Source: Verrucomicrobiota bacterium
GTDB taxonomy: Bacteria; Verrucomicrobiota; Verrucomicrobiia; Opitutales; Opitutaceae
Direction: 5' to 3'
Assembly: GCA_016871755.1 (NCBI GenBank)
Contig: VHCJ01000015.1
Location: 1-64,000 of the forward strand
DNA length: 64,000 nt
Each line of letters opens with the position of its first letter. The stretch's first letter is position 1. The position numbers and the translations under genes were made by a program. Below, piece after piece: positions 32,639 to 48,255 of this stretch. The notes under the pieces were generated by a model that had not been told where the DNA came from, did not search any database, and was given only the letters and a program-made list of their open reading frames with translations.

Positions 32639-33274
32639 ATGGGCCAAAAGACCAATCCCACTGGCTTCCGCCTCGCCGTCCGCCGGGACTGGCAGTCCCG
32701 CTGGTTCGCGACGAAGAAGGATTTCCCGAAGCTTCTCCTCGAGGATCAGATCATCCGCGAGAAGCTGATGGAGAAGCTGAAACTCGCCTCCGTGCCGCGC
32801 ATCTTCATTGAGCGCGCCTCCAACCGCGTGCGCGTCAAGATCTACACCGCCCGTCCGGGCGTGGTGATCGGCCGCAAGGGTCAGGAGGTCGAAAAGATCA
32901 GGGACGATCTCGCCAAGCTCACCGGCAAGGAAATCCTCCTCGATATTCAGGAGGTCAAGAAGCCCGAGATCGAGGCGCAGCTTGTCGCCGAGAACGTCGC
33001 CCTCCAGCTGGAGCGCCGCATCGCGTTCCGCCGGGCCATGAAGAAGGCGGTCGAAATGTCCATGGCGCTCGGCGCCGAGGGCGTTCGTATCCAGTGCTCG
33101 GGCCGCCTGGGCGGCGCCGACATCGCCCGCCGTGAGTGGCAGCGCAAGGGCCGCGTCCCGTTGCACACCCTCCGCGAGCACATCGACTATGGCTTCTCCG
33201 AGGCCCAGACCGTGTACGGCAAGATCGGCGTGAAGTGCTGGATCTGCAAAAAGGAAGCCGACGCCAACGCCTAA
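32639..33274 (+). CDS. rpsC: 30S ribosomal protein S3
   Basis: 211 aa from ATG 32639 ('[20 protein letters not shown]'); the frame is open far upstream but that part is a shadow of rplV. The KH domain contains '[18 protein letters not shown]' and the C-terminal half '[17 protein letters not shown]'-like block reads '[19 protein letters not shown]'. S3 lines the mRNA entry channel and has helicase activity with S4 and S5. Confidence 0.97.
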
Positions 33275-33336
33275 GCTGGTCGCTCCCGCAGCGCTCCGCG
33301 CCGCGGGTCTGAACCAAAAAACTCCGGACATCTCCC

Positions 33337-33759
33337 ATGGCTCTCGCACCCTCCCGCACCAAGTTCCGCAAGTCCCAGAAGGGCTCGCGCGCCGGCAACG
33401 CCAAGCGCGGCAACACGCTGGCCTTCGGCGAGTTTGGTCTTCAATCCCTCTCCCGCGGCCCGATGACGGGCCAGCAGATCGAGGCCGCCCGCGTCACGAT
33501 CTCCCGCCACCTCAAGCGCAAGGGCAAGCTCTGGATCCGCATCTTCCCGCACAAGCCCGTGACGAAGAAGCCGGCCGAGACCCGCATGGGTCAGGGCAAG
33601 GGCCCGGTCGAGTTCTACGTGGCCGTGATCAAGCCCGGCGCCGTGCTCTTCGAGCTCTCCGGCGTTCCGGCCTCGATCGCCAAGGAAGCCTTCCGCCTCG
33701 CCGACGCCAAACTGCCGTTCCGTTGCCGCTTCATCGTGCGCGCCGGAGCCGCCGCCTAA
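33337..33759 (+). CDS. rplP: 50S ribosomal protein L16
   Basis: 140 aa. It begins '[20 protein letters not shown]' and contains '[20 protein letters not shown]' and '[19 protein letters not shown]', including the arginine-rich loop contacting A-site tRNA. It is 62 nt after rpsC. Confidence 0.98.
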
Positions 33760-33790
33760 CCTGCGGGTTAAACCGACACCCCCGACTGAC

Positions 33791-33991
33791 ATGACTGCCA
33801 AAGAAATTCGTGAACTGACGCCCGCCGAGATCGACTCCAAGGTCCGCGAGGCCCGCGAGCGTCTCCTCCAACTGCGTCTCCGCAAGCACACCGGCCAGGT
33901 CGAGAAGACCCACGAGGTCCGCGCCCTGCGCAAGGACATCGCCCGGCTCCTCGCCGGGGCCAACGCGAAGAAGTCCGCCCAAGCCGCCTAA
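33791..33991 (+). CDS. rpmC: 50S ribosomal protein L29
   Basis: 66 aa. '[20 protein letters not shown]' and '[18 protein letters not shown]' form the two-helix hairpin of L29, located near the tunnel exit. rpsQ begins 5 nt after its stop. Confidence 0.95.
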
Positions 33992-33996
33992 CCGCC

Positions 33997-34341
33997 ATGT
34001 CCACGCGCAATTCCCGCAAGACCCTCACCGGGTTCGTCACCACCCGCTCCGGCGACAAGTCGGTCAAGGTCACGATCCCCTACAAGACGCCGCATCCGCG
34101 TTACCATAAGGTCATCAATCGTCAGACCGTGCTCCATGTGCACGACGAGAAGAATGAGACCAAGGCTGGCGACAAGGTCGAGGTCATGGAGACCCGCCCT
34201 CTCAGTCGGCTCAAGCGCTGGCGCGTCATCCGCGTCGTGGAGCGCGCCGTCGTTTCCGATGCCGTGGCGATCAGCGAGACCGATGTCGCCGCCGCCGTCC
34301 CCACCAAGACCACCGCGCCGAAGTCGCCCGGTACGGCCTGA
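33997..34341 (+). CDS. rpsQ: 30S ribosomal protein S17 with C-terminal extension
   Basis: 114 aa against about 85 for typical S17. The core (about 1-83) shows '[20 protein letters not shown]' and '[20 protein letters not shown]'. Residues after about 84 are an extra tail ('[20 protein letters not shown]') rich in Ala, Thr and Pro. S17 binds the 5' domain of 16S rRNA. Similar low-complexity tails occur in S5, S11 and L17 of this locus. Confidence 0.97.
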
Positions 34342-34382
34342 GGCCGGACCGAGCGCACCCGCTGCAGACTGAAAGGAATCCC

Positions 34383-34748
34383 ATGATCCAGCTTCGTTCC
34401 ATCGTAGAGGTCGCCGACAATACCGGCGCCCGCAAGGCCGCCTTCATCTCCCGCAAGGGTCAAAACACCGACACCGCCGGCGTGGGTGATATCGTGACCG
34501 TGCACATCAAGGAGAGCACCACCGACGCTACCGTGAAGAAGGGCGAGGTCGCCAAGGCCGTCGTCGTTCGCACGCGCGCCCCGGTGCGCCGCGCCGACGG
34601 CAGTTACCTGCGCTTCGACGCCAACGCGATCGTCATCATCGGTGCCGACGGCAATCCGCGCGGCACCCGCATCTTCGGGCCCGTCGCCCGCGAGCTGCGC
34701 GCCAAGAACTTCATGAAGATCATCTCGCTCGCCCCCGAGGTGCTGTAA
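34383..34748 (+). CDS. rplN: 50S ribosomal protein L14
   Basis: 121 aa. '[20 protein letters not shown]' and '[20 protein letters not shown]' followed by '[20 protein letters not shown]' are near-invariant L14 blocks. L14 bridges to helix 14 of 16S rRNA and binds the silencing factor RsfS. Shine-Dalgarno GAAAGGAA (34371-34378). Confidence 0.98.
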
Positions 34749-34759
34749 AGGAGCCGACC

Positions 34760-35035
34760 ATGCCGACATTTCACATCAAACGCGGCGACGAAGTCGTCGT
34801 CCTCGCCGGTGCCCATCGCGGCAAGTCCGGCAAGATTCTCGAGATCCTTGCCGGATCGCAGCGCGCCCGCGTCGAGGGCGTCGCGATGATCAAGCGCCAC
34901 CTCAAGAAGTCTCAGGAGCATCCCAACGGCACCATCGCCGAGCGCGAAGGCTCCATCCACGTGTCCAACTTGCAGCTCAAGAGCCGCTACGACGCCAGCA
35001 AGCGCCGCCCGGCAAAGGCTGTCGCTGGCGCCTGA
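34760..35035 (+). CDS. rplX: 50S ribosomal protein L24
   Basis: 91 aa. 'KRGDEVVVLAGAHRGKSGKI' is the KOW motif, followed by 'VEGVAMIKRHLKKSQEHPNG' and 'IHVSNLQLKSRYDA'. L24 is an early 50S assembly protein. It follows rplN by 11 nt. The 110-nt spacer after it holds a weak terminator-like element. Confidence 0.97.
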   Translation: MPTFHIKRGDEVVVLAGAHRGKSGKILEILAGSQRARVEGVAMIKRHLKKSQEHPNGTIAEREGSIHVSNLQLKSRYDASKRRPAKAVAGA

Positions 35036-35068
35036 CCTTTCCGGCGATCTTCCTTGCCCCGGTTCCGG

Positions 35069-35092
35069 GGTTGGGGGATGCTCAACCTTTTT
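35069..35092 (+). terminator. weak attenuator-like element between rplX and rplE
   Basis: GGTTG (35069-35073) pairs with CAACC (35083-35087), followed by five Ts. The stem is short, so at most partial termination is expected. A CCCC-GGTTCC-GGGG hairpin overlaps it at 35057-35070. Confidence 0.3.
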
Positions 35093-35145
35093 CCCTTTCC
35101 ACGTAACTCCCTCCGCCTCCGGCTTGGAAACCCGGGGCATTCTCC

Positions 35146-35709
35146 ATGAGTACCGTACCCTCCCTCAAGAAACTGTATGCCGAGCAGGTCGTGCCCGAGC
35201 TGACCAAACTGCGCGGCTACAAGAACGTGCACCAGGTGCCGCGGATCACGAAGATCGTGATCAACACCGGCATCGACTCGGAAGCCGACAAGAATCAGAT
35301 CGCCGACATCGCCCGTGATCTCGGCCTGATCGCCGGCCAGAAGCCCGTGCTCGCCAAGTCCCGCAAGGCGATCGCCAACTTCAAGCTCCGCGCCGGCCAG
35401 GTCGTCGGCGCGCACGTCACGCTGCGCGGCGCGAACATGTGGGAATTCCTGTACCGCCTGCTGGCGGTCGCCATCCCGACGATCCGCGACTTCCGCGGCG
35501 TTTCCCCGAAGCTGGACGGACAGGGGAATTACAACCTGGGCGTCACCGACTTCACCATCTTCCCGGAGATCACCGTTGAGAACGTCAAGAAGACGATGGG
35601 CCTCGACATCACGATCGTTACGACCGCGAAGTCGGACGACGAGGGTCGCGACCTCCTCCGTCTGATGGGTATGCCGTTCCGTCGTTCGGAGAGCCAAAAG
35701 GCCGCCTAA
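35146..35709 (+). CDS. rplE: 50S ribosomal protein L5
   Basis: 187 aa. '[20 protein letters not shown]', '[20 protein letters not shown]' and '[16 protein letters not shown]' identify L5, which binds 5S rRNA. It starts the part of the spc genes after the 110-nt gap and is followed by rpsN after 14 nt. Confidence 0.98.
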
Positions 35710-35723
35710 CCTTCACTTTCGCC

Positions 35724-36029
35724 ATGCCCAAGACATCCGCCATTCAGCGCAACGACAAGCGCAAGAAGCTCACGGCGAAGTTCGCCGCCAAGCGCGCCGA
35801 ACTCAAGGCTCTGCTCGCCAATCCTGCGACCACCGACGAGGAGTTCTTCGCCGCCCAGAAGAAGCTGCAGAAGCTTCCCCGCAACTCCTCCGCCGTGCGT
35901 GTCCGCAACCGTTGCTCGATGAGCGGTCGCCCGCGGGCCTACATCGGCAGGTTCGGTGTTTCCCGTATCCAGTTCCGTGAACTTGCGCTCGCCGGCAAGA
36001 TCCCCGGCGTGACCAAGTCCTCCTGGTAA
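35724..36029 (+). CDS. rpsN: 30S ribosomal protein S14, zinc-free long form
   Basis: 101 aa, the long C-minus type. It has '[20 protein letters not shown]' and ends '[15 protein letters not shown]', with no CxxC pairs, so it does not bind zinc. S14 is in the 30S head. It follows rplE by 14 nt. Confidence 0.97.
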
Positions 36030-36111
36030 ATCCTTTTCCCCGACGGGAGTGCGTGCACCTCTGGTGCCCGGGATATGACCCGTCGGATTCACCCAAGCAG
36101 CATCCACGACC

Positions 36112-36504
36112 ATGACTGATCCCATCAGCGATTTCCTGACGCGTCTTCGGAACGCGTCGCAAGCGCGAAGGGCGGAGACCGCCTCGCCCCATTCCCAGAT
36201 GAAGGAGGCCATCGCGGCCATCCTCAAGGAAGACGGCTTCATCTCCGACTACTCGCACGGCACCGACGAGTGCGGTCACAAGACCCTCGTCGTCAAGTTG
36301 AAGTACGTGAACGAGGCGCCCGCGATCACCCAGGTGAACCGCGTGTCGACCCCGGGTCGCCGTCTCTATTTCGGCTACCAGGAGATTCCGCGGGTCCTCA
36401 ACGGCCTCGGCATCAGCATTCTTTCCACGTCCCGCGGCCTGATGAACAACCAGAACTGCCTCCGCCACAAGGTCGGTGGCGAGTTGGTGTGCACGGTCTG
36501 GTAA
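36112..36504 (+). CDS. rpsH: 30S ribosomal protein S8
   Basis: 130 aa. 'MTDPISDFLTRLRNASQARR' and the C-terminal 'LGISILSTSRGLMNNQNCLR' are typical. S8 binds helix 21 of 16S rRNA and represses the spc operon in enterobacteria by binding near rplE; I did not detect a clear copy of that site. An 82-nt spacer precedes it. Confidence 0.98.
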   Translation: MTDPISDFLTRLRNASQARRAETASPHSQMKEAIAAILKEDGFISDYSHGTDECGHKTLVVKLKYVNEAPAITQVNRVSTPGRRLYFGYQEIPRVLNGLGISILSTSRGLMNNQNCLRHKVGGELVCTVW

Positions 36505-36521
36505 CCCAAGGAGACATACCC

Positions 36522-37064
36522 ATGAGCCGCATTGGAAAGCAGCCCGTTGTCATTCCCGAGAAGGTGAAGGTCGCCGTGAACGCGGCCAGCAACTCCGTCT
36601 TGGTCGAGGGACCCAAGGGCAAGGTCCAGAAGTCGTTTGCGCCGGTCGTGAAGATCGATGTCGCGGACAAGAAGGTCACGTTCGCCCCCACCGAGGACAC
36701 CCGTTTCTCGCGGGCGATGTACGGTACGGCGCGGTCGGTCGTCGCCGGCATGGTCAAGGGAGTGACCGAGGGCTACACCAAGGAGCTTGAGATCCAGGGC
36801 GTCGGCTTCAAGGCCGTGCTCAAGGGCAAGCAACTCGACCTCGCGCTCGGCTACTCGCATCCGATTCTTTTCGACATTCCAGAGGGCATCAAGGTCACGG
36901 TCACGGACCAGACCAAGCTCAAGGTTGAGGGTGTGGACAAGCAGTTGGTCGGCGCGGTGACGGCGGAGATCCGCAGTTACTACCCGCCGGAGCCGTACAA
37001 GGGCAAGGGTGTCCGCATCGTCGGCGAGCGCGTTCGCCGCAAGGAAGGCAAGACGGTCGCCTAA
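36522..37064 (+). CDS. rplF: 50S ribosomal protein L6
   Basis: 180 aa from ATG 36522 ('MSRIGKQPVVIPEKVKVAVN'), with Shine-Dalgarno AAGGAG (36508-36513). The frame is open upstream but that part is a shadow of rpsH. The C-terminal 'SYYPPEPYKGKGVRIVGERV' block is conserved. L6 sits near the GTPase-factor binding site. Confidence 0.98.
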   Translation: MSRIGKQPVVIPEKVKVAVNAASNSVLVEGPKGKVQKSFAPVVKIDVADKKVTFAPTEDTRFSRAMYGTARSVVAGMVKGVTEGYTKELEIQGVGFKAVLKGKQLDLALGYSHPILFDIPEGIKVTVTDQTKLKVEGVDKQLVGAVTAEIRSYYPPEPYKGKGVRIVGERVRRKEGKTVA

Positions 37065-37099
37065 CGCCCGTCGCAACCCGCATCCGAAGGAATTACTTC

Positions 37100-37462
37100 A
37101 TGAATACCATCAAGAAGGCCGACCTGCTGCAAAAGCGCCGCTGGCGCATCCGCAAGAAGGTCGTGGGCACCGCCGCCCGGCCGCGTCTGAGCGTCAAGTT
37201 CAGCACCAAGCACATTTATGCTCAGGCGATCGACGACGCCGCGGGCTCCACGCTCGTGTTCGTCTCGAGCCTCGATCCGGCCCTGCGCAAGGAGGGCCTC
37301 AAGGCCAACCTCGCGGGCGCCAAGCGCCTCGGCGAGGCCTTCGTGGCCAAGGCCAAGACGGCCGGTCTCAGCGCGGTCGTGTTCGACCGCAGCGGCGCCC
37401 GCTACCATGGCAAGGTGAAGAGCTTTGCCGAAGCTGCCCGCGAGGGTGGTCTGATTTTCTAA
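37100..37462 (+). CDS. rplR: 50S ribosomal protein L18
   Basis: 120 aa. '[20 protein letters not shown]', '[20 protein letters not shown]' and '[20 protein letters not shown]' identify L18, a 5S rRNA-binding protein. It lies 35 nt after rplF and 12 nt before rpsE. Confidence 0.98.
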
Positions 37463-37474
37463 CCGCTGTTGCCC

Positions 37475-38104
37475 ATGAGCACTGAATCTGTTCCTTCCCC
37501 CGTGGCTGACAGCGGCTCCGAAAGCCGTCCGGCTGCACCCAAGAATCGCTCCTTCGGCGGCCCCGGCGGCCCCGGTGGTGGTCGTCGTGGCCCCGGTGGT
37601 CGCGATGGCCGCGGCCCGCGCCGCGACGCGCCGGCGAAGTCCGATGGTCCTGAGATGATCGAGAAGGTCGTCTTCATCAACCGCTGCGCCAAGGTCGTCA
37701 AGGGCGGCCGGCGCTTCAGCTTCTCAGCCCTCGCCGTGGTTGGCGACGGGAAGGGGAGCATCGGCGTGGGTCTGGGCAAGGCCAACGAGGTCCCGGATGC
37801 GATCCGCAAGAGCACCGAGCACGCCAAGAAGCGGCTCATCAAGGTCAAGATCAAGGGTGACACGATTCCCCACGAGGTCTTCGGGGTGTTCGACGGAGGC
37901 AAGGTGCTCCTGAAGCCGGCGTCCACCGGCACCGGCCTGATCGCTGGTGGCGGCGTCCGTGCGGTGCTCGAGGCGGCGGGCGTCAAGAACGTGCTCACCA
38001 AGTCCATGGGCTCGAACAATCACATCGCGGTCGTCAATGCGACGATCGCCGCCCTGCGCCAACTGCGCCTGTCGGACGATATCGCGGCCATCCGCAAGGC
38101 CTGA
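37475..38104 (+). CDS. rpsE: 30S ribosomal protein S5 with Gly/Arg-rich N-terminal extension
   Basis: 209 aa against about 167 for typical S5. After '[19 protein letters not shown]' comes a Gly/Pro/Arg-rich segment ('[20 protein letters not shown]', about 25-50), then the conserved core '[20 protein letters not shown]' and '[16 protein letters not shown]'. S5 affects decoding fidelity. rpmD (L30), normally next, is absent; rplO follows after 73 nt. Confidence 0.97.
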
Positions 38105-38177
38105 TCCTCCCCTCAACGTCTCTCATCCGAGTCGCGCCGACTCCTGCAGCCGGCGCGGCGACCCAACTAGGAATCCC

Positions 38178-38624
38178 ATGAAACTTCACGAACTCAAGAA
38201 TGTCCCCGGAGCCGTCCACCGCCGCAAGCGCGTGGGCTGTGGCGAGGGAAGCGGCCATGGCAAGACGTCCGGTCGCGGTGGCAAGGGCCAGACGGCCCGC
38301 TCTGGCGGCAGCATCCGCCCGGGCTTCGAAGGCGGTCAGATGCCCCTGTACCGCAAGCTCCCGCACCGCGGTTTCAATCAGGCGGCGTTCCGGACCGAAC
38401 CGGCCGTGGTGAACGTCGGCGATCTCACCGGCCTCCCCGATGCCGCGACCGAGGTCAACGCGCAGGTCTTGGCCGATCATGGCCTGATCCGCGCCGGCGA
38501 GTCGTTCGTCAAGGTGCTTGGCGATGGCGAGTTGAAGCGCGCCCTCCGCGTCACCGCCGCTAAGTTCTCGGCTTCCGCCAAGGCGAAGATCGAGGCCGCT
38601 GGCGGCCAGGCGATCGTCGCCTGA
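38178..38624 (+). CDS. rplO: 50S ribosomal protein L15
   Basis: 148 aa from ATG 38178 ('MKLHELKNVPGAVHRRKRVG'). The glycine-rich N-terminal region 'GRGGKGQTARSGGSIRPGFE' with 'GGQMPLYRKLPHRGF' is typical of L15, a late assembly protein. A Shine-Dalgarno-like AGGAA (38169-38173) precedes it. Confidence 0.98.
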   Translation: MKLHELKNVPGAVHRRKRVGCGEGSGHGKTSGRGGKGQTARSGGSIRPGFEGGQMPLYRKLPHRGFNQAAFRTEPAVVNVGDLTGLPDAATEVNAQVLADHGLIRAGESFVKVLGDGELKRALRVTAAKFSASAKAKIEAAGGQAIVA

Positions 38625-38640
38625 CGCCGACGGCGACGTC

Positions 38641-38660
38641 GCGGGGGCTTCGGCCCCCGC
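38641..38660 (+). other. very stable UUCG-loop hairpin before secY
   Basis: GCGGGGGC (38641-38648) and GCCCCCGC (38653-38660) are perfectly inverted around TTCG, giving a C(UUCG)G tetraloop. It lies between rplO and secY, 52 nt before the secY GTG. Without a T-tract it may tune secY output or mark an RNA end. Confidence 0.5.
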
Positions 38661-38712
38661 TGCCTTCCCGGCCCGTCCGGCCCTCCGTACCTCGGTTCCT
38701 GCTTTCCCACCC

Positions 38713-40215
38713 GTGTTTTCCGCCTTCACCAACTCCCTGAAGATCCCGGAGCTCCGCTCCCGCATCTTCTACACGCTGGCGCTGCTCTTCGTGGCGCGCG
38801 TGGGCGCGCACATCCCCCTGCCGGGCCTCGATCCGAAGCCGCTGCAGGCCTTCTTCGCCGACCAGACGGCTGGCGGAGCCAGCGCCCTCGTCGGTCTCTA
38901 CAATATGTTCACGGGCGGTGCGCTCGTGAAGGGCGCTGTCTTCGCCTTGGGCATCATGCCCTACATCAGTGCCTCGATCATCTTCCAGCTGATGACCGCA
39001 GTGGTTCCGGCCCTCAGCCGTCTGCAGCAGGAGGGTGATGTCGGGCGGCAAAAGCTTACCCAGTACACGCGCTATGCGACGGTGGCGATCTGCCTGATCC
39101 AAGGCACGTTGCTCATCCTTGCCTTGGAGAATCCGGGGCGTCTCTTTCCCGGATACGACATCAATCAGTACGGTTCGATCGTCATCGTCAGCAAGGGCTG
39201 GTTCCTGATCACCTCGGTCATCTTTATGACCGCGGGCACGCTGATGCTCATGTGGCTCGGTGAGCAGATCACTCAGCGAGGCATTGGCAACGGCGTCTCT
39301 CTGCTCATCACCGTGGGCATCCTCGCCGACATTCCCGGTGCGGCCGCTGCGACCTACCAACTGTTCTTCGCCCCGGTCGGAGTCGCCCGGCTCGGCCTGC
39401 CGCAGGCGATCGTCATGGTGGGATTGTTCGTCACCGTCACGATGGGCATCATCATGGTGGTGCAGGGCCAGCGGAAGATCCCGGTCCAGTACGCCAAGCG
39501 CGTCGTGGGCAACAAGGTCATGGGGGGCCAGAGCTCCTTCCTGCCGCTCAAGGTCAACTATTCCGGCGTCATGCCCGTCATCTTTGCCAGCGCGATCCTG
39601 CTCTTCCCGCAGCAGATCTTTGCCCAACTCGGCGCCGCGATGAACTGGAAGTGGATGATCGAGTTCTCCAACAACCTGCTCCGCGGACACTGGTCGTATT
39701 ACACGGTCATGGTCTTCCTGATCCTGTTCTTCAGCTACTTCTGGGTGTCGGTGATGTTCAAGCCGATCCAGATCGCCGATGACCTGAAGAAGTACGGCGG
39801 CTACATCCCCGGCGTGCGTCCCGGCGATCCGACGGCGCAGTTCCTCGACTTCATCATGACGCGTCTGACGCTGGCCGGAGCGATCTTCCTGACGGTGATC
39901 GCGGTCATGCCCGACGTGCTCTTGTTCGAGTTGAACGTCCCGCAGCGCATCGCGATTTTCTTCGGCGGCACGGGCATGTTGATCACCGTCGGCGTCGTTC
40001 TCGACACGATGCGGCAGATCGAGACGTTCCTCCTCCAGCGCCACTACGACGGCTTCCTCAAGAAGGGTCGTATCCGGGCGCGCAACCCCGGCATGCAGAG
40101 TCCGACCTCCGAGGCGCTTAGCTCGGAAGCCGTCATGAAGTTGGTGCTCCCTCTGTCCGGTCTCTTCCTGCTCGGATTGTCCATCTGGGCGTACCGGCAG
40201 TTCATGGGAAATTAG
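38713..40215 (+). CDS. secY: preprotein translocase subunit SecY
   Basis: 500 aa, GTG start at 38713 ('MFSAFTNSLKIPELRSRIFY'). Ten membrane segments are expected; recognisable blocks include 'FTGGALVKGAVFALGIMPYI' (plug/TM2), 'GNGVSLLITVGILADIPGAA' and the cytoplasmic loop 'GQRKIPVQYAKRV'. SecY with SecE and SecG forms the Sec channel. It is longer than the 443-aa Escherichia coli protein, mainly in the loop around 'NWKWMIEFSNNLLRGHWSYY' and at the C-terminus. The position in the spc cluster is standard. Confidence 0.98.
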   Translation: MFSAFTNSLKIPELRSRIFYTLALLFVARVGAHIPLPGLDPKPLQAFFADQTAGGASALVGLYNMFTGGALVKGAVFALGIMPYISASIIFQLMTAVVPALSRLQQEGDVGRQKLTQYTRYATVAICLIQGTLLILALENPGRLFPGYDINQYGSIVIVSKGWFLITSVIFMTAGTLMLMWLGEQITQRGIGNGVSLLITVGILADIPGAAAATYQLFFAPVGVARLGLPQAIVMVGLFVTVTMGIIMVVQGQRKIPVQYAKRVVGNKVMGGQSSFLPLKVNYSGVMPVIFASAILLFPQQIFAQLGAAMNWKWMIEFSNNLLRGHWSYYTVMVFLILFFSYFWVSVMFKPIQIADDLKKYGGYIPGVRPGDPTAQFLDFIMTRLTLAGAIFLTVIAVMPDVLLFELNVPQRIAIFFGGTGMLITVGVVLDTMRQIETFLLQRHYDGFLKKGRIRARNPGMQSPTSEALSSEAVMKLVLPLSGLFLLGLSIWAYRQFMGN

Positions 40216-40255
40216 GCTTTACTCGGCGGTCCGGGCGCCTACGTTCTTCCCTCTT

Positions 40256-40669
40256 GTGGTCTCGGAGTTCGGTGCCAAGTCGAAGCTAGTGATCCTTGGC
40301 CCGGTCTCTGGTGACCGCGATTTCAGCTTCCGTTCTTTGAATTTTATTGAGCACGTCTCTCCGGCCTCGTTGCTGAGTCCGGGGATTTCGCGATCCACGT
40401 CCCGCGGCCCATCGGCCGGCAAAGTGGACCCGGTCGCCGCGATGCGGCGCTGGTTTTGGTCGCGCAAACCCGATGCGGGATTCCTGTTGCAGGGATTCCC
40501 GGCTACGTTGCTCCAGGCAATGATCCTTGATGAGTGGCTGGCCGCGCGCGATGAAGCGCTCGACGCCGTCATCCTCGGTGATGAGACCTCCTTTGGGAGC
40601 GACCTCGCCGGGCACTACCGTCGCATGGGAATTCCGCTGGTGGCTCCGGCCACTGACCTTTCGCGATGA
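40256..40669 (+). CDS. degenerate adenylate-kinase-like protein lacking P-loop and LID
   Basis: 137 aa, GTG start at 40256, at the canonical adk position between secY and map. By eye it aligns to adenylate kinase in pieces: 'KLVILGPVSGD' (10-20) for the first strand and loop; 'FIEHVSPASLL' (30-40) for 'xIPHISTGDLL'; 'GFLLQGFPATLLQAMILDEW' (75-94) for 'GFLLDGFPRTxxQAxxLD'; 'LDAVI' (102-106); and 'YRRMGIPLVA' (121-130) for the C-terminal 'Y...TAPLI'. Catalytic features are missing: no GxxGxGK lysine, DGFPR is changed to QGFPA, and no LID segment remains between 110 and 118. The frame is intact and its stop overlaps the map ATG, so it seems to be expressed. It is probably not a kinase; a structural or regulatory role is unknown. 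Confidence 0.6.
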   Translation: MVSEFGAKSKLVILGPVSGDRDFSFRSLNFIEHVSPASLLSPGISRSTSRGPSAGKVDPVAAMRRWFWSRKPDAGFLLQGFPATLLQAMILDEWLAARDEALDAVILGDETSFGSDLAGHYRRMGIPLVAPATDLSR

Positions 40670-41454
40670 TCCCGATCAAGAACGAGCGCCAGATCGCGCG
40701 CATGCGGGAAGCATGCGCGATTGCAGCCGATGTGCTGCAGGAGTTGAGGGCGCTTGTCCGGCCTGGAATCAGCACGCAGGATCTGGAGGAGGCGGGTCGC
40801 GATGCGATCGCGAAGCACGGCGCCAAGAGCGCCTGTTACGGATATCAGGTGGGAGCCCGGCGTTACCCGGCGCACACCTGCATCTCGGTGAACGAGGAGG
40901 TGGTGCACGGCATCCCTTCATTTCGGCGCATCCTGCGCGATGGCGATGTCGTCGCGATCGATGTGGTCGTCTCCCATCAGGGCTTCGTCGGCGACAATGC
41001 CGCGACCTATGCGGTGGGTGCGGTGTCTCCGCGGGTTCAGCAACTTCTGGCTGTGACCGAGCAGTCCCTGCGCCTTGCGATTGAGCAGGCGAGGGTGGGG
41101 AACCGGATCGCCGATATTTCCCAGGCGGTGCAACGCCACGTCGAGGCCAACGGTTTCAGCGTGGTGCGCGACATGGTTGGCCACGGGGTCGGCCTCGCGA
41201 TGCACGAGGAACCGCAGATCCCGAACTTCGGCCGAGAGGTCCGCGACCGGATCCTCCCCGGCATGACGCTGGCGATCGAGCCCATGGTGAATTTGGGCGG
41301 CCATCGCACCCGGGTGCTCGCGGATGGGTGGACGATCGTCACGGCTGACGGATCGCCCTCCGCCCACTTCGAACACACCGTGCTCACGACCGAGGCCGGT
41401 CCGGAGATCCTGACCCGCCCGACCAACCTGCTCTTTCCGTTGCACGCCGCCTGA
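40666..41454 (+). CDS. map: type I methionine aminopeptidase
   Basis: 262 aa. It removes the initiator methionine from nascent proteins. All five metal ligands of the pita-bread fold are present: D99, D110, H173, E205 and E236, plus H81. The start ATG overlaps the stop of the upstream adenylate-kinase-like gene (ATGA), implying translational coupling. infA and rpmJ, often found between map and rpsM, are missing in the 78-nt spacer that follows. Confidence 0.97.
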   Translation: MIPIKNERQIARMREACAIAADVLQELRALVRPGISTQDLEEAGRDAIAKHGAKSACYGYQVGARRYPAHTCISVNEEVVHGIPSFRRILRDGDVVAIDVVVSHQGFVGDNAATYAVGAVSPRVQQLLAVTEQSLRLAIEQARVGNRIADISQAVQRHVEANGFSVVRDMVGHGVGLAMHEEPQIPNFGREVRDRILPGMTLAIEPMVNLGGHRTRVLADGWTIVTADGSPSAHFEHTVLTTEAGPEILTRPTNLLFPLHAA

Positions 41455-41532
41455 GGCGCTGCACCCCTTCACTTTCGTTCGTTTCCCTCCCTTTCGTCTC
41501 CAACCTTTTCCCACCAAACCCTCCCGTCCATC

Positions 41533-41910
41533 ATGCCTCGTCTCCTTGGCGTTGAAATCCCCGCGAAGAAGAAAGTTTCTTACTCGCTTCGTTACATTTA
41601 CGGCATCGGCCCGGTGCGTGCCGACCAGATCCTGCAGGAAGCAGGCATCGATCCGAACCTGCGGGCGCAGGAGCTGACCGAGGAGCACCTCAACAAGATC
41701 CTGCACATCATCACCGAGCACAAGTGGGTGGTGGAGGGCGACCTGCGCCGCGAGATCGCGGCGAATCTGAAGCGCCTGCAGGCGATCAACTGCTATCGTG
41801 GCATCCGCCACCGCCGCAGCCTCCCGGTGCGCGGCCAGCGCACGAGCACGAATGCCCGTACCCGCAAGGGCCCGCGCAAGACCGTGGGTGTCACCACAGC
41901 CAAGGAATAA
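41533..41910 (+). CDS. rpsM: 30S ribosomal protein S13
   Basis: 125 aa. '[20 protein letters not shown]', '[20 protein letters not shown]' and '[20 protein letters not shown]' are S13 blocks; its C-terminal tail contacts P-site tRNA. It opens the alpha operon group (rpsM-rpsK-rpsD-rpoA-rplQ). Confidence 0.98.
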
Positions 41911-41919
41911 TTTACCGTC

Positions 41920-42552
41920 ATGGCCGAAGAAAAGTCAGCCCCCGCCAAGGAGAAGTCTGCGAAGTCCCCCGCCCCCGAGGGCGCCGCTCCCGCCGAGAAG
42001 AAGCCCGCCAAGGGCCCGAAGGCGGCCGCCCCGGCTGCCGATGCCGCCGCCCCGGCCACCGCTCCCGCCGGTGATGCCGCCGCAGCCGCCGCGCCCGCCA
42101 AGCCCGTGGAACTGGTGGGCGGGGTCGCCCGGCAACCGACCGCCGAGGAACTCCTCAAGGAGGAACTCGGAGCGATCAAGATCCGCAAGGCCAAGGGCTC
42201 GAAGAACGTCACTACGGGCTTCGTCAACGTCCTTGCCTCCTTCAACAACACCATCGTCTCGATCACCGACCTCAAGGGGCACGTGATCGCGTGGTCGAGC
42301 GCCGGCAAGTGCAACTTCCGCGGTTCACGCAAGTCCACCGCCTACGCCGCCCAGGTCGTCGCTCAGGATGCCGCCCGCAATGCGATGTCCCACGGCCTCA
42401 AGGACGTCGTCATCCGCGTCTCCGGTCCCGGCCTCGGCCGTGACAGCGCCGTCCGCGCCCTGCAGGCGATCGGACTTGAGATCACGTCGATCGTCGATGT
42501 CACTCCGATCCCGCACAACGGCTGCCGTCCGCGCAAGCGCCGCCGCGTCTAA
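41920..42552 (+). CDS. rpsK: 30S ribosomal protein S11 with long Ala/Pro/Lys-rich N-terminal extension
   Basis: 210 aa against about 129 for typical S11. The normal protein starts near residue 86 ('[20 protein letters not shown]') and ends '[16 protein letters not shown]'. Residues 1-60 are low complexity (e.g. '[20 protein letters not shown]'); residues 61-85 ('[20 protein letters not shown]' and following) look ordered. S11 sits on the platform near the mRNA exit, so the extension would project there. The start ATG is 9 nt after rpsM and no internal ATG with a Shine-Dalgarno was found near residue 86. Confidence 0.96.
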
Positions 42553-42601
42553 TCGGGCGGATCCACCTTCCTCTTCACCCTCTTAACCGCACAGGTTCAT
42601 C

Positions 42602-43213
42602 ATGGCCCGCTACACAGGTCCTACCACCCGCATGAGTCGTCGTTTCGGTCAGCCGATCTTCGGCGCGACCAAGGCGTACGAGCGTCGTCCCTTTCCCCCG
42701 GGCCAGCACGGCCCCAAGAACCGCCGCAAGCTGTCCGAATACGCCGTCGGCCTGAACGAAAAGCAAAAGCTCCGTTACATCTACGGGCTGCTGGAGCGCC
42801 AGTTCCGTCGCGTGTTCGAGATCGCCAAGAGCGAGCGCGGCGTCACCGGCGAGCGCTTCCTGCAGCTGCTCGAAACCCGCCTCGACAGCGTCGTCTACCT
42901 GCTCGGCTTCGCCAAGAGCCGCGCCGCCGCCCGCCAAATGGTCAATCACGGCCATGTCCGCGTGAACGGTCACAAGGTCGACATCGCCAGCTACAACGTC
43001 CGCGCCGGCGAGGAGATCGAGATCAAGAACACGCCGAGCTCCCGCCAGATCGCCACCCGCAATCTTGAGGAGAACCGGATGCGCAACGTTCCCGGCTGGC
43101 TCACGCTCAATGCCGAGAACTTCAAGGCGGTGGTCAACCGCCTGCCGACCCGCGAGGAGATGGATCCCACGATCAACGAACAGCTGATCGTCGAGTTCTA
43201 CTCCCGCTTCTGA
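42602..43213 (+). CDS. rpsD: 30S ribosomal protein S4
   Basis: 203 aa. 'MARYTGPTTRMSRRFGQPIF' is followed by 'KSRAAARQMVNHGHVRVNGH', the S4 RNA-binding domain. It has no cysteine ligands, so it is the zinc-free form. S4 is a primary 16S binder and represses the alpha operon in enterobacteria; regulation here is unknown. Confidence 0.98.
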   Translation: MARYTGPTTRMSRRFGQPIFGATKAYERRPFPPGQHGPKNRRKLSEYAVGLNEKQKLRYIYGLLERQFRRVFEIAKSERGVTGERFLQLLETRLDSVVYLLGFAKSRAAARQMVNHGHVRVNGHKVDIASYNVRAGEEIEIKNTPSSRQIATRNLEENRMRNVPGWLTLNAENFKAVVNRLPTREEMDPTINEQLIVEFYSRF

Positions 43214-43298
43214 TCCGGTCCCGGTCCGGGGCGCCCAGGGTCCGCCGCCCGCCCCGCCTCCGGCCCGACAACCTCCACTTACTCATCCGCTCCCCGCC

Positions 43299-44300
43299 AT
43301 GCCCAAACGCCTTGGAAAGTTCGAACTCCCGAACAAGCTCACCAAAGTCGAGGAAGGCGCCACCGCCACCTACGCCAAGTTCATCGCCGAGCCGTTCGAA
43401 GCCGGCTACGGACACACCGTCGGTAACTCCCTCCGCCGCGTTCTCCTGAGCTCCATCGAGGGCTCCGCCATCTCCTCCATCCGCATCGACGGTGTGAACC
43501 ACGAGTTCCAGAGCGTCGATGGCGTGGTCGAGGACGTCACCGACATCGTCCTCAACCTGAAGAAGGTCCTCGTCGTCTCGCAGAAACGCGATCCTGTCAC
43601 CCTCCAGATCAAGGTGAACCGCGACGGTCCGGTCACCGCCGCCGATATCCAGCCGGACTCGAACATTACGATCATCAATCCGGGTCAGGTCATCTGCACC
43701 CTCGATAAGCCTCGTTCGTTCTCCGCCGAAATCGAGATCAAGACGGGCCGTGGCTACTATCCCGGCGAGCAGAACAAGAAGGAAGACCAGGCGATCGGCG
43801 TCATCCCGATCGACTCTCTGTTCTCCCCGGTCAAGCTCGTCAAGTACTCGGTCGAAAACACCCGCGTGGGCCAGATCACCGACTACGACAAGCTCATCCT
43901 CGAGGTCTGGACCGACGGCCGCATCGCGCCCGATGAGGCGCTCAAGCAGTCCGCGTCGATCCTCAAGCACCACCTCGATGTCTTCGACCGCGTCAGCGAT
44001 GAGGCCTACGAGTTCGAGAACCAGCAGTCCGAGGTCAGCGAGGAGCAGAACAAGCTCCGCAAGCTGCTCAACATGTCGGTCAACGAAATCGAGCTCTCCG
44101 TCCGCGCGGCAAACTGCCTCAACAACGCGAACATCACCACCGTCGGCGAACTCGCCATGAAGACGGAGCAGGAGATGCTCAAGTACCGCAACTTCGGCAA
44201 GAAGTCGCTCAACGAAATCAAGGAGAAGCTCGAGGCCCTCGGCCTGTCGCTCGGCATGAAGTTCGACGAGCGTCTCCTCGACACCAAGAAGGAAGCCTGA
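43299..44300 (+). CDS. rpoA: DNA-directed RNA polymerase subunit alpha
   Basis: 333 aa. The N-terminal domain has 'EPFEAGYGHTVGNSLRRVLL' (dimer and assembly site); the C-terminal domain has 'ELSVRAANCLNNANITTVGE' with the arginine that binds UP-element DNA, then 'NFGKKSLNEIKEKLEALGLS'. The protein scaffolds RNA polymerase assembly. An intact DNA-binding CTD agrees with AT-rich upstream elements such as that proposed before tRNA-Thr/tuf. Confidence 0.99.
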   Translation: MPKRLGKFELPNKLTKVEEGATATYAKFIAEPFEAGYGHTVGNSLRRVLLSSIEGSAISSIRIDGVNHEFQSVDGVVEDVTDIVLNLKKVLVVSQKRDPVTLQIKVNRDGPVTAADIQPDSNITIINPGQVICTLDKPRSFSAEIEIKTGRGYYPGEQNKKEDQAIGVIPIDSLFSPVKLVKYSVENTRVGQITDYDKLILEVWTDGRIAPDEALKQSASILKHHLDVFDRVSDEAYEFENQQSEVSEEQNKLRKLLNMSVNEIELSVRAANCLNNANITTVGELAMKTEQEMLKYRNFGKKSLNEIKEKLEALGLSLGMKFDERLLDTKKEA

Positions 44301-44433
44301 GTCCCGCCGCCGCCCGGTCGTCCTCGCGACTCCCGGAGCGGCGGAATCCTCCCTTTCCGGCCCTCGCGCCGCCCGCCGTCGCCCCACGCTGCGACCGGGT
44401 TGCCGATCGGGGGCCGAAACACCCACCACACCC

Positions 44434-44925
44434 ATGCGTCATAACAAGCACCACGCTTCGCTCGGCGTCACGCGGGAACACCGCGCCGCCATGCTCTCCA
44501 ATCTCGCGGTCTCCCTGATCGAGCACGGTCGGATCAAGACCACGCTGACCAAGGCGAAGGCCCTCCGTCCCTTCGTCGAGAAGGTCATCACCAAGGCCAA
44601 GAAGGCCGCGGTCGCCACCGAGAAGAAGGACAAGCTGCATCTCCGCCGCCTTGCCCTCCGCGATGTGCGTGACGAAGCCGCGATCGCCTCGCTCTTCGAC
44701 GAGAAGTGCAAGGAGTTTGCCAATCGTCCGGGTGGCTACACCCGCATCTACAAGCTGAGCCAGCAGCGCCGCGGCGACGCCGCCGAGATGGCGCTGATCG
44801 AGGTCATCAAGGCGGACGACGTCGGTTACAAGAAGTCCAAGGGTCGCAAGGCCGCCAAGCCGGCCAAGGCCAGCGCGCCCGCCGAGGAGGCTCCTGCGGC
44901 CGCCGCGCCGGCTGCCTCCGCCTGA
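44434..44925 (+). CDS. rplQ: 50S ribosomal protein L17 with C-terminal tail
   Basis: 163 aa. The core starts 'MRHNKHHASLGVTREHRAAM' and includes 'GGYTRIYKLSQQRRGDAAEM'. After about residue 130 there is an Ala/Lys/Pro tail ('KAAKPAKASAPAEEAPAAAA'), absent in short L17. L17 lies near the tunnel exit. A 133-nt spacer without a terminator separates it from rpoA; the operon ends with the terminator after it. Confidence 0.97.
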   Translation: MRHNKHHASLGVTREHRAAMLSNLAVSLIEHGRIKTTLTKAKALRPFVEKVITKAKKAAVATEKKDKLHLRRLALRDVRDEAAIASLFDEKCKEFANRPGGYTRIYKLSQQRRGDAAEMALIEVIKADDVGYKKSKGRKAAKPAKASAPAEEAPAAAAPAASA

Positions 44926-44959
44926 GCCCGTCAGGGTCCGGAGCGGTCGTCCGCGTTCA

Positions 44960-44990
44960 AGCGCCGAACCAAGGTTCGGCGCTTTTTGTT
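44960..44990 (+). terminator. rho-independent terminator of the ribosomal protein superoperon
   Basis: AGCGCCGAA (44960-44968) pairs with TTCGGCGCT (44975-44983) around CCAAGG (CC/GG can pair further), followed by TTTTGTT. It ends the rpsL-to-rplQ run. Confidence 0.85.
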
Positions 44991-45050
44991 CCCCTCGCGC
45001 GCCGCGCTCCGGCTTGAGCCGGGCCGTGGCGCAAGTCATGCTCTCCCGCC

Positions 45051-45278
45051 GTGCTTGATTTCACCCATGCCGCCGTCGCCTACTGCCTCGCGGTCGCGCT
45101 CCTTTACCTGGGGCTTTGGGTGTACTACGACCGAATCCGGCCGCGTCGGCTCGCCCGGCCCGGTCGGCGGCATGCGTTCTTCTGCTCGCGCTGCCAGCGG
45201 CCCTACGAGGGTCCGCCCGGTGCCGAGACCGCTCCGTGCCCAACCTGCGGGAAGCCGCAGGGACGCCTGCGCTTCTAG
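45051..45278 (+). CDS. small membrane protein with cytoplasmic zinc ribbon
   Basis: 75 aa, GTG start at 45051. One membrane segment (about 8-25, 'AVAYCLAVALLYLGLWVYY') is followed by a basic stretch and a zinc-ribbon pattern: CSRC at about 45-48 and CPTC at about 63-66, 14 residues apart. I do not recognise the family. It lies between the rplQ terminator and guaA, with 58 nt to guaA, so it may share the guaA transcript. Two clean CxxC pairs in a strongly coding-biased frame argue that it is real. Confidence 0.65.
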   Translation: MLDFTHAAVAYCLAVALLYLGLWVYYDRIRPRRLARPGRRHAFFCSRCQRPYEGPPGAETAPCPTCGKPQGRLRF

Positions 45279-45336
45279 GCGCTTGCCTCCGCCAGCACCC
45301 GGGTCACTCGTTCCTTAGCCCTGTCCGCCCCGCTCC

Positions 45337-46875
45337 ATGAACCAGACGATCGCCGTCCTCGATTTCGGCTCCCAATACACGCAGGTCATCGCCCGCCGGA
45401 TCCGCGAGTGCAACGTGTACTCCAAGATCTACCCGTACGGCACGTCCGCCGCCGCCCTTCGCGCCGACGGCGTCATTGGCATCATCCTGTCCGGGGGACC
45501 GAGCAGCGTGTTCGCCAAAGGGGCCCCGATGCCGGACCGCGGGATCTTCGAACTCGGGGTCCCGGTTCTCGGCATCTGCTACGGCATCCAGCTCATGGGC
45601 CGCCTGCTCGGCGGCACCGTGGCGCGGGGCGAGCGGCGCGAGTACGGCAACGGCACGCTGCGGATTCAGCGCCCGGGCCGGCTCTTCGCCGCGCTGCCGC
45701 GACAGCTCACGGTCTGGAATTCCCACGGCGACAAACTCACCGCGCTGCCGCCGGGCTTTGTCGCGATCGGCACCACCGAGAATTCCCCGTTCGCCGCGAT
45801 CGAGGATCGCCGCCGCAATTTCTTCGGCATCCAGTTCCACCCCGAGGTCTCGCACTCCGAGCGCGGCGTCGACGTGCTCCGCAACTTCCTCGTCGGGGTC
45901 TGCGGTGCCCGGCAGGACTGGACCACCAAGGACTTCATCAAGCATTCCGTCGCCGACATCCGGGCTGCGGTGGGCAAGTCCCGCGTTCTCCTCGGCCTGT
46001 CCGGCGGAGTCGATTCCTCCGTTGCCGCCGCGCTGATCCACGAGGCCATCGGCCGCCGGCTCACCTGCGTGTTCGTGGACAATGGGCTGCTGCGGAAGGG
46101 CGAGCGCGAGGCCGTCGAGGAACTGTACCGGAAGCATTTCCACATCGACGTGCGCGTCGTGGATGCATCCACGCTCTTCCTCCGCCGCCTGAAGGGCGTC
46201 ACGGACCCGGAGCGCAAGCGCAAGATCATCGGCAACACGTTCGTCGAGGTGTTTGAACGCTCGCTGCGCAGCGTGGGTCCGGCCGAGTTCCTCGCCCAGG
46301 GCACGTTGTACCCGGATGTCATCGAGTCCGTCGCCATCGCCGGTAACCCGGCCGCCCTCATCAAGTCGCACCACAATGTCGGCGGCTTGCCCGAGCGCAT
46401 GAAGCTCAAGTTGCTCGAACCGCTGCGCGAACTCTTCAAGGACGAGGTCCGCGCCGTCGGCTCCGCCCTCGGTCTGCCGCGCGAGGTGGTCTGGCGCCAG
46501 CCGTTCCCCGGCCCTGGGCTCGGGGTGCGCGTGGCCGGCGATATCACGCGCCAGCGCCTTGACGTGCTGCGCGAGGCGGATGCGATCGTGCAGGAGGAAA
46601 TGATGGCCAGCGAGTGGTACTGGAAGGTCTGGCAGTCGTTCGCCGTCTACCTGCCGGTGAAGTCCGTCGGGGTCGTAGGGGATGAACGGAACTACGCCGA
46701 CGTGATCGGCCTCCGCATCGTGGAGTCCCGCGATGCCATGACCGCCGACTGGAGCCGCCTTCCGGACGACCTCCTCCAGAAGATCTCCTCCCGCATCACC
46801 AACGAGGTTCGCGGGGTCTCACGCGTCGTCCTGGACATCAGCTCCAAGCCGCCCGCGACGATTGAGTGGGAGTGA
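45337..46875 (+). CDS. guaA: GMP synthase (glutamine-hydrolysing)
   Basis: 512 aa. It converts XMP to GMP with glutamine and ATP. The glutamine amidotransferase domain has catalytic C81 ('[10 protein letters not shown]'), H167 and E169 ('FHPEVS'). The ATP pyrophosphatase domain has the PP-loop SGGVDSS (221-227), and the dimerisation domain contains '[16 protein letters not shown]' and ends 'KPPATIEWE'. Length and order are standard for bacterial single-chain GuaA. Confidence 0.98.
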
Positions 46876-46883
46876 GCGACGTC

Positions 46884-46917
46884 GCCGCCGAGTGTTCGTC
46901 GTTGCCGCGTCGGCGGC
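46884..46917 (+). terminator. hairpin between guaA and hisD
   Basis: GCCGCCGA (46884-46891) and TCGGCGGC (46910-46917) pair perfectly around an 18-nt loop, 8 nt after the guaA stop. No T-tract follows. Confidence 0.35.
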
Positions 46918-46935
46918 ACCCCGCTTGGATGGTGA

Positions 46936-48255
46936 TTGATCGTTACCTTCCGTCCTGCCGTGCGCGTTCTCACTTACAACAACCGGACCTTCGCGTCGCA
47001 GCTGCGGGCCTTTGCCGACCCGGGCTCGACCTCCGCCACCGTCTCCACCTCCGTCGCCGCGATCCTCGCCGATGTGCGGCAGCGCGGCGATGAGGCGATC
47101 GTGGAGTATGTCGCGCGGTTCGACCGCGCCCGGCTGACGCCGACGGATTTCCGGGTCCCCGAAGCCGAACTACAGGCCTCCGTCGCGCGGCTGCCCGCCG
47201 CCGACCGCCGGGCGATCCGGGCAGCGTTGGCAGCGGTTATGGCGTTCAACCGCCGGAGTCTCCCGAAGGGCTGGACGGCTCGGAACCTGCATGGGGCGCG
47301 CGTGGGGGAACGTCACTTCCCGCTCCAGCGCGTGGGGATTTACGTTCCGGGTGGACAGGTGCCGCTGGTGTCGACGGTGCTGATGACCGTGCCCTTGGCG
47401 AAGATCGCGGGCTGTCCGGAGATCGCCGCGTTCACGCCGTCGAATGCTGAGGGGAAGGTCTCCGAGCACCTGCTCGCGGCTCTGGCCCTCGCCGGCGTGC
47501 GCGAGGTCTACCGGATTGGCGGGGTGCAGGCCGTGGCGGCGATGGCCTACGGCACCGCCACGATCCGACCGGTCGACAAGGTGTTCGGACCGGGCAACGC
47601 CTACGTCTGCGAGGCCAAGCGTCAGGTCTTCGGCACCATCGGGGTTGATTCACTCCCGGGCCCAAGCGAGGTGATGGTGATTGCCGATGACTCCGCGGTG
47701 CCCCACTACGCAGCCGCGGACCTGCTGGCGCAGGCCGAGCACGGGAGCGGCCGGGAAAAGATCTACCTTGTTGCCCCGTCGCGTCGCGTGATCGCGCGCA
47801 TCGCCGCCGAGGTGGAGGAGCAACTGAAGACCCTGCCGCGGGCGGATCGCATCCGACCCGTGCTGGCGGAGGGATTTCTCGCCGTCGTCGTCCGTTCGCT
47901 TGATGACGCGGTGAAGGTCGCGAACCAGGTTGCGCCGGAGCATTTGGAACTCCTCGTGCGTCCCGACGCGCAGGTGCGTTTGACGCGGTCGATCACGACG
48001 GCGGGGGCGATCATGCGCGGCAACTTCACGCCCACGGCGGTGGGGGATTTCGCCGCGGGTCCGAGTCATGTTCTTCCCACTGGCGGCGCCGGGCGCTTCC
48101 TGAGCGGGCTGCGTGTCGCCGACTTCATGCGCCGGACGAGCATCTTGGCGTACGACCGGCGGAGCCTGCGCAAGGCGGCACCGGTGGTGGCCGCCTTCGC
48201 GGCGATGGAACAACTCGCGGCGCACGGCCGCTCGGTCGCCATCCGCGGCGAGTGA
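46936..48255 (+). CDS. hisD: histidinol dehydrogenase
   Basis: 439 aa from TTG 46936; GTG 46960 ('VRVLTYNNRTF') is an alternative start with no clear preference. It performs the last two oxidation steps of histidine synthesis. Visible blocks are 'GIYVPGGQVPLVSTVLM', 'KVFGPGNAYVCEAKRQVFG', 'GPSEVMVIADDSAVPHYAAA' and 'LAQAEHGSGREKIYLV' with the catalytic Glu-His pair, then 'VAPEHLELL'. hisC follows with overlap (GTGA) or 23 nt spacing. Confidence 0.97.
   Translation: MIVTFRPAVRVLTYNNRTFASQLRAFADPGSTSATVSTSVAAILADVRQRGDEAIVEYVARFDRARLTPTDFRVPEAELQASVARLPAADRRAIRAALAAVMAFNRRSLPKGWTARNLHGARVGERHFPLQRVGIYVPGGQVPLVSTVLMTVPLAKIAGCPEIAAFTPSNAEGKVSEHLLAALALAGVREVYRIGGVQAVAAMAYGTATIRPVDKVFGPGNAYVCEAKRQVFGTIGVDSLPGPSEVMVIADDSAVPHYAAADLLAQAEHGSGREKIYLVAPSRRVIARIAAEVEEQLKTLPRADRIRPVLAEGFLAVVVRSLDDAVKVANQVAPEHLELLVRPDAQVRLTRSITTAGAIMRGNFTPTAVGDFAAGPSHVLPTGGAGRFLSGLRVADFMRRTSILAYDRRSLRKAAPVVAAFAAMEQLAAHGRSVAIRGE

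Follow-up and report, generated by a model that had tools for sequence, protein, structure and literature searches.

The degenerate adenylate kinase gene between secY and map in the window (the whole analysed stretch of DNA, 64,000 nt) holds two layers of information: the same stretch also carries a nucleotide-level element, which was not noticed in the first-pass annotation. Nucleotides are frozen across Opitutaceae, and the conservation of a secondary structure beyond the coding constraint is strongly supported. The element is probably a cis-regulatory RNA, perhaps a ribosomal-protein leader, located in the ORF of a dead enzyme upstream of map-rpsM-rpsK-rpsD-rpoA. We give this reading a probability of about 60%; its strand, ligand and mechanism we infer. 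If it is true, a dead enzyme gene became a regulatory RNA while it was still translated.

The adenylate kinase relic

The ORF is intact and flanked by secY (38713-40215) and map (40666-41454). Map and the genes behind it are named by eye from their sequences.

40256..40669, + strand: pseudo-adenylate kinase ORF, 137 aa, GTG start; its stop and the map start share 4 nt (ATGA)
40666..41454, + strand: map (methionine aminopeptidase), first gene 3' of the RNA element
41533 rpsM, 41920 rpsK, 42602 rpsD, 43299 rpoA, 44434 rplQ, + strand: genes after map, from the ORF list

The start codon of the relic is uncertain, it is a GTG in the window and the nearest relatives begin 8 codons further upstream. 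Pfam ADK matches the protein with E=9e-4 and 19.8 bits, which is under the 26.8-bit cut-off, and the best NCBIfam adk model reaches E=7e-6; both matches are limited to residues 71-106. The profile of the relic family finds solved adenylate kinases at E=2e-6 and adenylate kinases of other orders with E down to 4e-17. A structure predicted by AlphaFold from 60 members (mean pLDDT 75.7) is similar to adenylate kinases: in a Foldseek search the best E is 1.2e-3 and nothing lies under E 0.001, and in VIA-align comparisons the best alignment has Z 8.1 and rmsd 4.0 over 124 residues. By profiles, slot and structure comparison the relic and adenylate kinase share common descent and fold. The first-pass annotation had described a pseudo-adenylate kinase in the adk slot that matches the enzyme only in segments, and had proposed a profile search against the nucleoside monophosphate kinases; the relation found in this way is partial yet significant.

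Common to the relic and to adenylate kinase are the secY-adk-map slot and the alignable segments, whereas the P-loop, the LID and the catalytic arginines are gone. Residues R88, R119, R123, R156 and R167 (E. coli numbering) are the AMP/phosphate arginines of adenylate kinase. Among 94 distinct relic members R88 and R123 are kept in two each and R119, R156 (a gap in all) and R167 in none; R36 is retained in 61. K13 and the P-loop motif GxxxxGK[ST] are each found in 0/94. The relic family thus shows neither the P-loop with K13 nor the AMP/phosphate arginines of a functional adenylate kinase, and the absence of the P-loop lysine, the DGFPR arginine and the LID, noted earlier for the single sequence, extends with these few exceptions to the family.

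For a full-length adk elsewhere in the genome, for which the first-pass annotation had advised to look, a candidate could be identified. The genome of the window has a single ADK match over the cut-off; it lies in a protein of 407 aa that carries an intact P-loop (GGAPGAGKGT), DGFPRT and a long C-terminal region.

Contig 8 of the window's genome (G000), 118472-118738 (L001 718-1941), - strand: 407-aa Adk candidate, ADK match over cut-off

This protein presumably provides the adenylate kinase activity. An ADK match over the cut-off exists in 37 of 38 relatives (the window's genome counted), mostly in frames of about 400 aa or more. In four family members (G012, G015, G021, G022) two adjacent ADK matches lie in a single open frame of 418-504 aa, as if there were tandem adenylate kinase domains.

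Distribution and fate of the adk slot

A scan of genome contigs found 167 relatives, of which the best 80 were retained; these are Opitutaceae, Opitutae or Verrucomicrobia records and a few less specific ones. Among these best 80 of 167, secY precedes the relic in all 80 loci, and in all 79 loci with readable downstream DNA map follows, with a distance of at most 11 nt between the relic stop and the map start. The frame is complete and open in 79 of them, the remaining one is cut by a contig end and none is broken; since only the best 80 were kept, this count leans towards intact copies. The claim that the frame is maintained and tied to the map start holds in these loci, and the stop codons and frameshifts of a simple pseudogene were not seen in any of them.

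When 38 relatives were searched with the protein, 19 of the 25 that belong to the same family had strong matches (E up to 4e-9), and none of the 13 outside it had one. Of the 30 family members in a class sample of 286 genomes, 24 carry the relic. Outside the family, the six best matches come from other orders of the class; they are intact adenylate kinases that have P-loop and DGFPR in frames of 219-235 aa, and in all six loci that were read the intact adk sits between secY and map. In 20 secY gaps from other families of the same order the gene next to secY is map (19) or rpsM (1) and starts after 8-232 nt, so that there is no room for the relic ORF. Because adk is intact in the slot in other orders (6/6) and none fits into the gaps of the same order, the slot probably held a true adk originally. 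In Opitutaceae a degenerate copy probably survived, and in the other sampled families of the order adk probably disappeared from the slot.

Selection on the protein and frozen synonymous codons

The dN/dS analysis across relatives, which had been suggested earlier, indicates purifying selection on part of the protein. The ten closest pairs have values of 0.25-0.46 (one of them 0.38). Pooled over 37 independent pairs, with G018 and G021 omitted, dN/dS is 0.46 for the 5' part, 0.38 for the RNA part and 0.27 for the C-terminal part (codons 88-127). For comparison, map has a value of 0.14 (32 pairs).

A codon was called frozen if one codon is used in 97% or more of the sequences, scored at conserved-residue columns. 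In the same 54 loci the relic has 17 frozen codons at 54 conserved columns, in contrast to 0/87 for map and 0/101 for secY. If only residues with four or six codons are counted, the numbers are 10/36, 0/58 and 0/63. In 68 representatives the invariant synonymous positions form five blocks, CGTTCTTTG, GAGCACGTCTCT, GAGATTTCG, CGCAAACCYGATGCG and TTCCCGGCTACGYTGCTC, and at residues 88-126 most synonymous sites show the expected variation. Of 99 loci (100 less G021, which has no second block), 96 have an exact GAGCACGTCTCT and 92 an exact fifth block. In the class search 30 loci were fetched, and four tested blocks occur in 27, 29, 30 and 30 of them, which is no independent test since these loci were found by the model. 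The peptides RSL, EHVS, EIS, RKPDAG and FPATLL are conserved jointly with their synonymous sites, which argues that the nucleotides are what is being maintained. Since the protein is constrained as well, we regard the stretch as a structured RNA together with a translated, partly constrained ORF.

These numbers bear on two other explanations. It is quite unlikely that the gene is a maintained pseudoenzyme, nucleotide-binding or scaffold-like, whose conservation serves the amino acids: the open frames in 79/79 complete loci (best 80 of 167 relatives), the dN/dS of 0.27 over codons 88-127 and the adenylate kinase-like model (mean pLDDT 75.7, best Z 8.1) would fit, but such a protein leaves the frozen synonymous codons unexplained, the tested ATP-site residues are gone, and one genome (G229) kept the nucleotide blocks and lost the protein core. 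A nucleotide sensor had been among the earlier suggestions. It fares badly, as the best-conserved residues are frozen at their synonymous sites too, and two members (G018 and G021) keep FPR without having the full element. A sensor or scaffold as the sole function was rejected on the frozen synonymous sites and on G229, where the RNA blocks are kept and the protein core is gone. More generally, amino-acid conservation in pseudoenzymes can be the shadow of an RNA constraint. The second explanation, a neutral relic that is kept open solely for translational coupling to map, we consider hardly credible; the stop-start distance within 11 nt in 79/79 loci (best 80 of 167 relatives) speaks for it, yet a neutral interior would diverge, and here there are 17 frozen codons and dN/dS values of 0.27-0.46. 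From the earlier proposal of a remnant kept for coupling the ORF ends stand, with the stop-start arrangement at map, whereas the frozen interior fits a structured RNA better. Finally, an overlapping protein on the minus strand was tried and rejected: of 98 loci, 71, 0 and 53 have an open frame across the blocks in the three minus registers, so that none is maintained throughout.

A probable four-way junction inside the open reading frame

Pairing between the frozen blocks yields a compact four-way junction (40349-40513), which lies 3' of a boxA-like sequence, GTTCTTTGAA.

40331..40515, + strand: whole element as modelled (R1, 182 positions, 28 pairs), 159.4 bits in the window, which is part of the training set
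40332..40341, + strand: boxA-like GTTCTTTGAA, candidate NusB/S10 site; GTTCTTTG present in 93/99 scored loci
40349..40356, + strand: P1 5' strand GAGCACGU, invariant in 61/61 aligned sequences; partner 40505-40513
40358..40385, + strand: P2 hairpin UCUCC...GGAGA (window: GGGGA), two scored parts with 98.8% and 93.4% of cells paired, two-sided changes
40386..40392, + strand: P3 5' strand UUUCGCG, partner 40461-40468, 94.8% of cells paired
40461..40468, + strand: P3 3' strand CGCG-c-AAA with a single bulged C
40469..40474, + strand: junction strand J3/4, CCYGAU; block CGCAAACCYGATGCGGG exact in 85/99 scored loci
40475..40503, + strand: P4 hairpin GCGGG...CCCgGC; base 100% paired, variable apical stem 84.7%
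40505..40513, + strand: P1 3' strand ACG-Y-UGCUC with a single bulged Y, invariant except Y in 61/61

Over 61 sequences 96.7% of the 1708 cells of the hand-drawn structure are paired, the structure having been drawn from the same sequences as those scored. Cells changed on both sides number 19 as compared to 6.1 in shuffles (0/500 as high). None of 500 shuffles reaches two of the measures that count covariation, and two of the five shuffle measures are modest (two-sided pairs reached by 32/500, pair types by 18/500). If the partners are slid by 1-3 columns, pairing falls to 29-54%. The alignment fold of the + strand has -97.2 versus a mean of -48.9 for column shuffles (lowest -59.7 of 20). Synonymous-codon shuffles that preserve the protein and the codon usage give a mean z of -2.36, which is negative in 61/61 sequences.

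All four helices recur in the free MFE structure of the window RNA, except that the three U-A pairs of P3 are missing and the P4 foot is shifted by one base; the dinucleotide z of this RNA is -1.61 and 14 of 200 shuffles fold as well. For the inner part of P2 the mean z against shuffles is -1.5 (below -1 in 38/61; -1.65 on the minus strand). The P4 apical pair 209/218 is UA in 37, UG in 13, CG in 10 and otherwise in 1 sequence, and 22/61 sequences have no pairing at the outer apical positions 208/219. On a secY+map tree with 77 rows the best covarying pair co-changes in 2-4 of 5 independent comparisons (median p 0.125), or in 3-4 of 9 if counted from the other side (median p 0.25). Covariation is thin because most pairs never vary. 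An extra hairpin within P3 (about positions 104-119 of the element) was suspected by eye and rejected, as pair counts do not support it; two terminator-like stems on the + strand overlap this stretch.

The boxA-like site and the strand of the element

The candidate boxA can be compared to the consensus GYTCTTTAANA of gammaproteobacteria (PMC5725501). With GTTCTTTGAAT it fits this gammaproteobacterial consensus at 9 of 11 positions including N and has two mismatches. The boxA copy of the E. coli rrn leader is GCTCTTTAACAAT. Sites of boxA type that bind NusB/S10 are located in the leaders of ribosomal RNA and also before other genes such as suhB; for suhB of E. coli this control of a non-rRNA gene has been demonstrated, and for further genes it is predicted (PMC5725501). 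In contrast to these sites, the candidate described here lies inside an ORF, beside a junction RNA. The octamer GTTCTTTG is also present in 4 of the 20 secY gaps from other families of the order, as compared to 0.11 expected. These are the short secY-map gaps of G034, G210, G068 and G311 (L070, L220, L221, L227). This suggests that map and the alpha operon may have been under boxA control before the junction RNA arose.

A second sequence that recurs in these loci lies just behind secY.

40217..40222, + strand: CTTTAC hexamer, with a presumed -35-like role, just 3' of the secY stop codon

CTTTAC is found 40-220 nt upstream of P1 in 93 of 98 element-bearing loci, and in 40 of these 93 a CAT follows at +18. 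A promoter scan of both strands revealed no consensus sigma-70 promoter. The idea that CTTTAC is the standard -35 of this genome was dropped: in the 90 nt before 30 of 45 tRNA matches (some loci are cut by contig ends) GTTGAC (7/30) and TTGACA (5/30) are favoured instead. Elsewhere in the window, at 52904-52933, CTTTAC, 18 nt and CATAGT precede an ATG shortly downstream, which is promoter-like and resembles the CTTTAC-N18-CAT behind secY.

The same structure could be formed by an RNA from the other strand, for instance an antisense or trans-acting small RNA. Folding energies are indeed equally compatible with it: the alignment fold is -100.4 on the minus and -97.2 on the + strand, and the codon-shuffle z is -2.41 versus -2.36 (for the window alone -3.17 versus -1.91). 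The per-sequence MFE is lower on the + strand in 26/61, and the free + folds reproduce 1073 of the 1708 hand-drawn pairs, the minus folds 995. A choice of strand by energy was tried and given up. The initial alignment fold had given -18.5 (+) versus -93.7 (-), and over the longer region, with columns under half filled removed, the two strands are nearly equal; therefore energy was not used.

Base changes point in both directions. A-C cells occur as well as G-U cells (20 versus 34), which weighs against the + strand; the seven at the P3 pair 61/132 and the eight at the outer apical P4 pair (with 2 G-U) would be G-U on the minus strand and favour it. On the other hand, the two best apical pairs show 23 U-G versus 1 C-A. 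The boxA-like sequence and CTTTAC suggest the + direction, and G229 keeps both of them and has, by eye, nothing recognisable where a minus promoter would sit. No minus promoter or terminator was found in the scan, but a + promoter is likewise absent. We favour the + strand because of the boxA-like GTTCTTTGAA, the recurrence of the octamer in 4/20 gaps and the tolerance of U-G where C-A is not tolerated; the reading direction was counted as well. An RNA of the minus strand is thus unlikely, though it deserves some weight.

Occurrence of the RNA element

A covariance model detects the cis-regulatory candidate in 32 of 38 family genomes, each with a single strong match, and a further match in one of the genomes has E 0.14; no match was obtained for G023, G239, G272, G292, G020 and G348. 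In 346 other genomes of the class, where stricter filters were used, nothing was found below E 0.13. The element adjoins secY and map in 30/30 loci fetched by the covariance-model search.

Two kinds of genomes are telling. In G229 the map start lies 357 nt behind the secY stop, and the protein has lost its W/F core and its C-terminal motifs, with the W-F-W and DEWLDAR parts gone. What this locus retains is CTTTAC, an ATG, GTTCTTTG, the full set of five blocks with a single change in the last one, a frame that is open over 114 codons and the ATGA at map; it scores 89.8 bits (G229 is in the training set). Judged from its sequence, it is the nucleotides that survive in G229 and not the protein core. 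The two most divergent members, G018 and G021, have a protein with FPR instead of FPAT and score 31 and 26 bits, with the later blocks missing. To judge from these three genomes, the order of events was probably the dead enzyme first and the full element later.

In the window (30000-50000) no Rfam 15 family reaches its gathering score; with E up to 10 four matches appear, all far below it. An exact two-block pattern has no match in IMG/VR. In the literature searched no description of the element was found, and we claim no absence from print beyond that; the main text of PMC7247131 contains neither 'Verrucomicrobia' nor 'Opitut', and that of PMC2864571 does not contain 'Opitut'. As the element lies inside an ORF, searches confined to intergenic DNA would miss it, and RNA finders restricted to gaps between genes can overlook such elements in general.

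Proposed function

The following scheme would agree with the position and the conservation of the element. The adk of the secY-adk-map cluster died as an enzyme in Opitutaceae, as the sequences show. Its frame stayed open, and the mRNA acquired the boxA-like sequence and the compact four-way junction of about 165 nt. To judge from its position, the element would act in cis on the + transcript that runs into map, rpsM, rpsK, rpsD, rpoA and rplQ. It lies upstream of rpsD in the same direction, with map, rpsM, rpsK and rpsD in this order on the + strand. Feedback is the most likely mode: a ribosomal protein of the operon, with S4 as the best guess, might bind the junction and lower translation or transcription of the pseudo-adk/map mRNA. 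The boxA-like site, whose role is presumed, could recruit NusB/S10 and so let the polymerase continue into the operon. The signal would be relayed by translation of the short ORF and by its stop-start coupling to map. Some selection also acts at the protein level on the C-terminal third, so that either the peptide or the act of translating it is of importance too. The element is a concrete candidate for the control of the ribosomal alpha operon in Opitutaceae.

A bolder form of this scheme is possible and we put it forward tentatively. It holds that the element is a new Opitutaceae-wide class of structured RNA, exapted in a dying adk ORF, and that its frozen bases imposed the change from FPR to FPA and now set the apparent conservation of the protein. 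By sensing a ribosomal protein, this RNA would couple boxA antitermination to the translation of map and the alpha operon via a translated pseudogene.

The compactness of the junction and its frozen single-stranded linkers would also suit a metabolite riboswitch, for example one that controls map rather than the ribosomal genes. Five family genomes lack the element, the ORF and the in-slot map together and still have rpsM there, which would also fit a map-specific switch. Against a riboswitch, each genome has one strong match only, located beside secY and map in 30/30 fetched loci, and the element stands behind a boxA-like site within a ribosomal operon; we therefore regard it as very unlikely. 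In G016, G020, G239, G292 and G272 (L062, L064, L215, L216, L218) the stretch between secY and rpsM is without relic and map, and CTTTAC is kept behind secY.

Likeness to known RNA sites

S4 leaders are known in Gammaproteobacteria and Firmicutes, with candidates in Clostridia, Fusobacteriales, Bacteroidia and Flavobacteria; the candidates in Clostridia and Fusobacteriales precede rpsM, rpsK, rpsD, rpoA and rplQ (PMC7247131). As in these two lineages, the cis-regulatory candidate in Opitutaceae is a structured RNA before rpsM-rpsK-rpsD-rpoA-rplQ. It differs in being a four-way junction inside an open frame ahead of map, and its binding of S4 is putative. The frozen-block consensus matches E. 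coli 16S 378-392 at 14 of 15 positions (0/200 shuffles). The whole element of the window is no better than shuffles (181/200), and therefore no 16S mimicry is claimed.

A regulatory RNA structure that shares its bases with codons has a precedent. In E. coli the S8 binding site at the start of rplE overlaps the coding sequence. The relic resembles sites of this type in the double use of its bases and differs in the host ORF, which is a dead enzyme unrelated to ribosomes.
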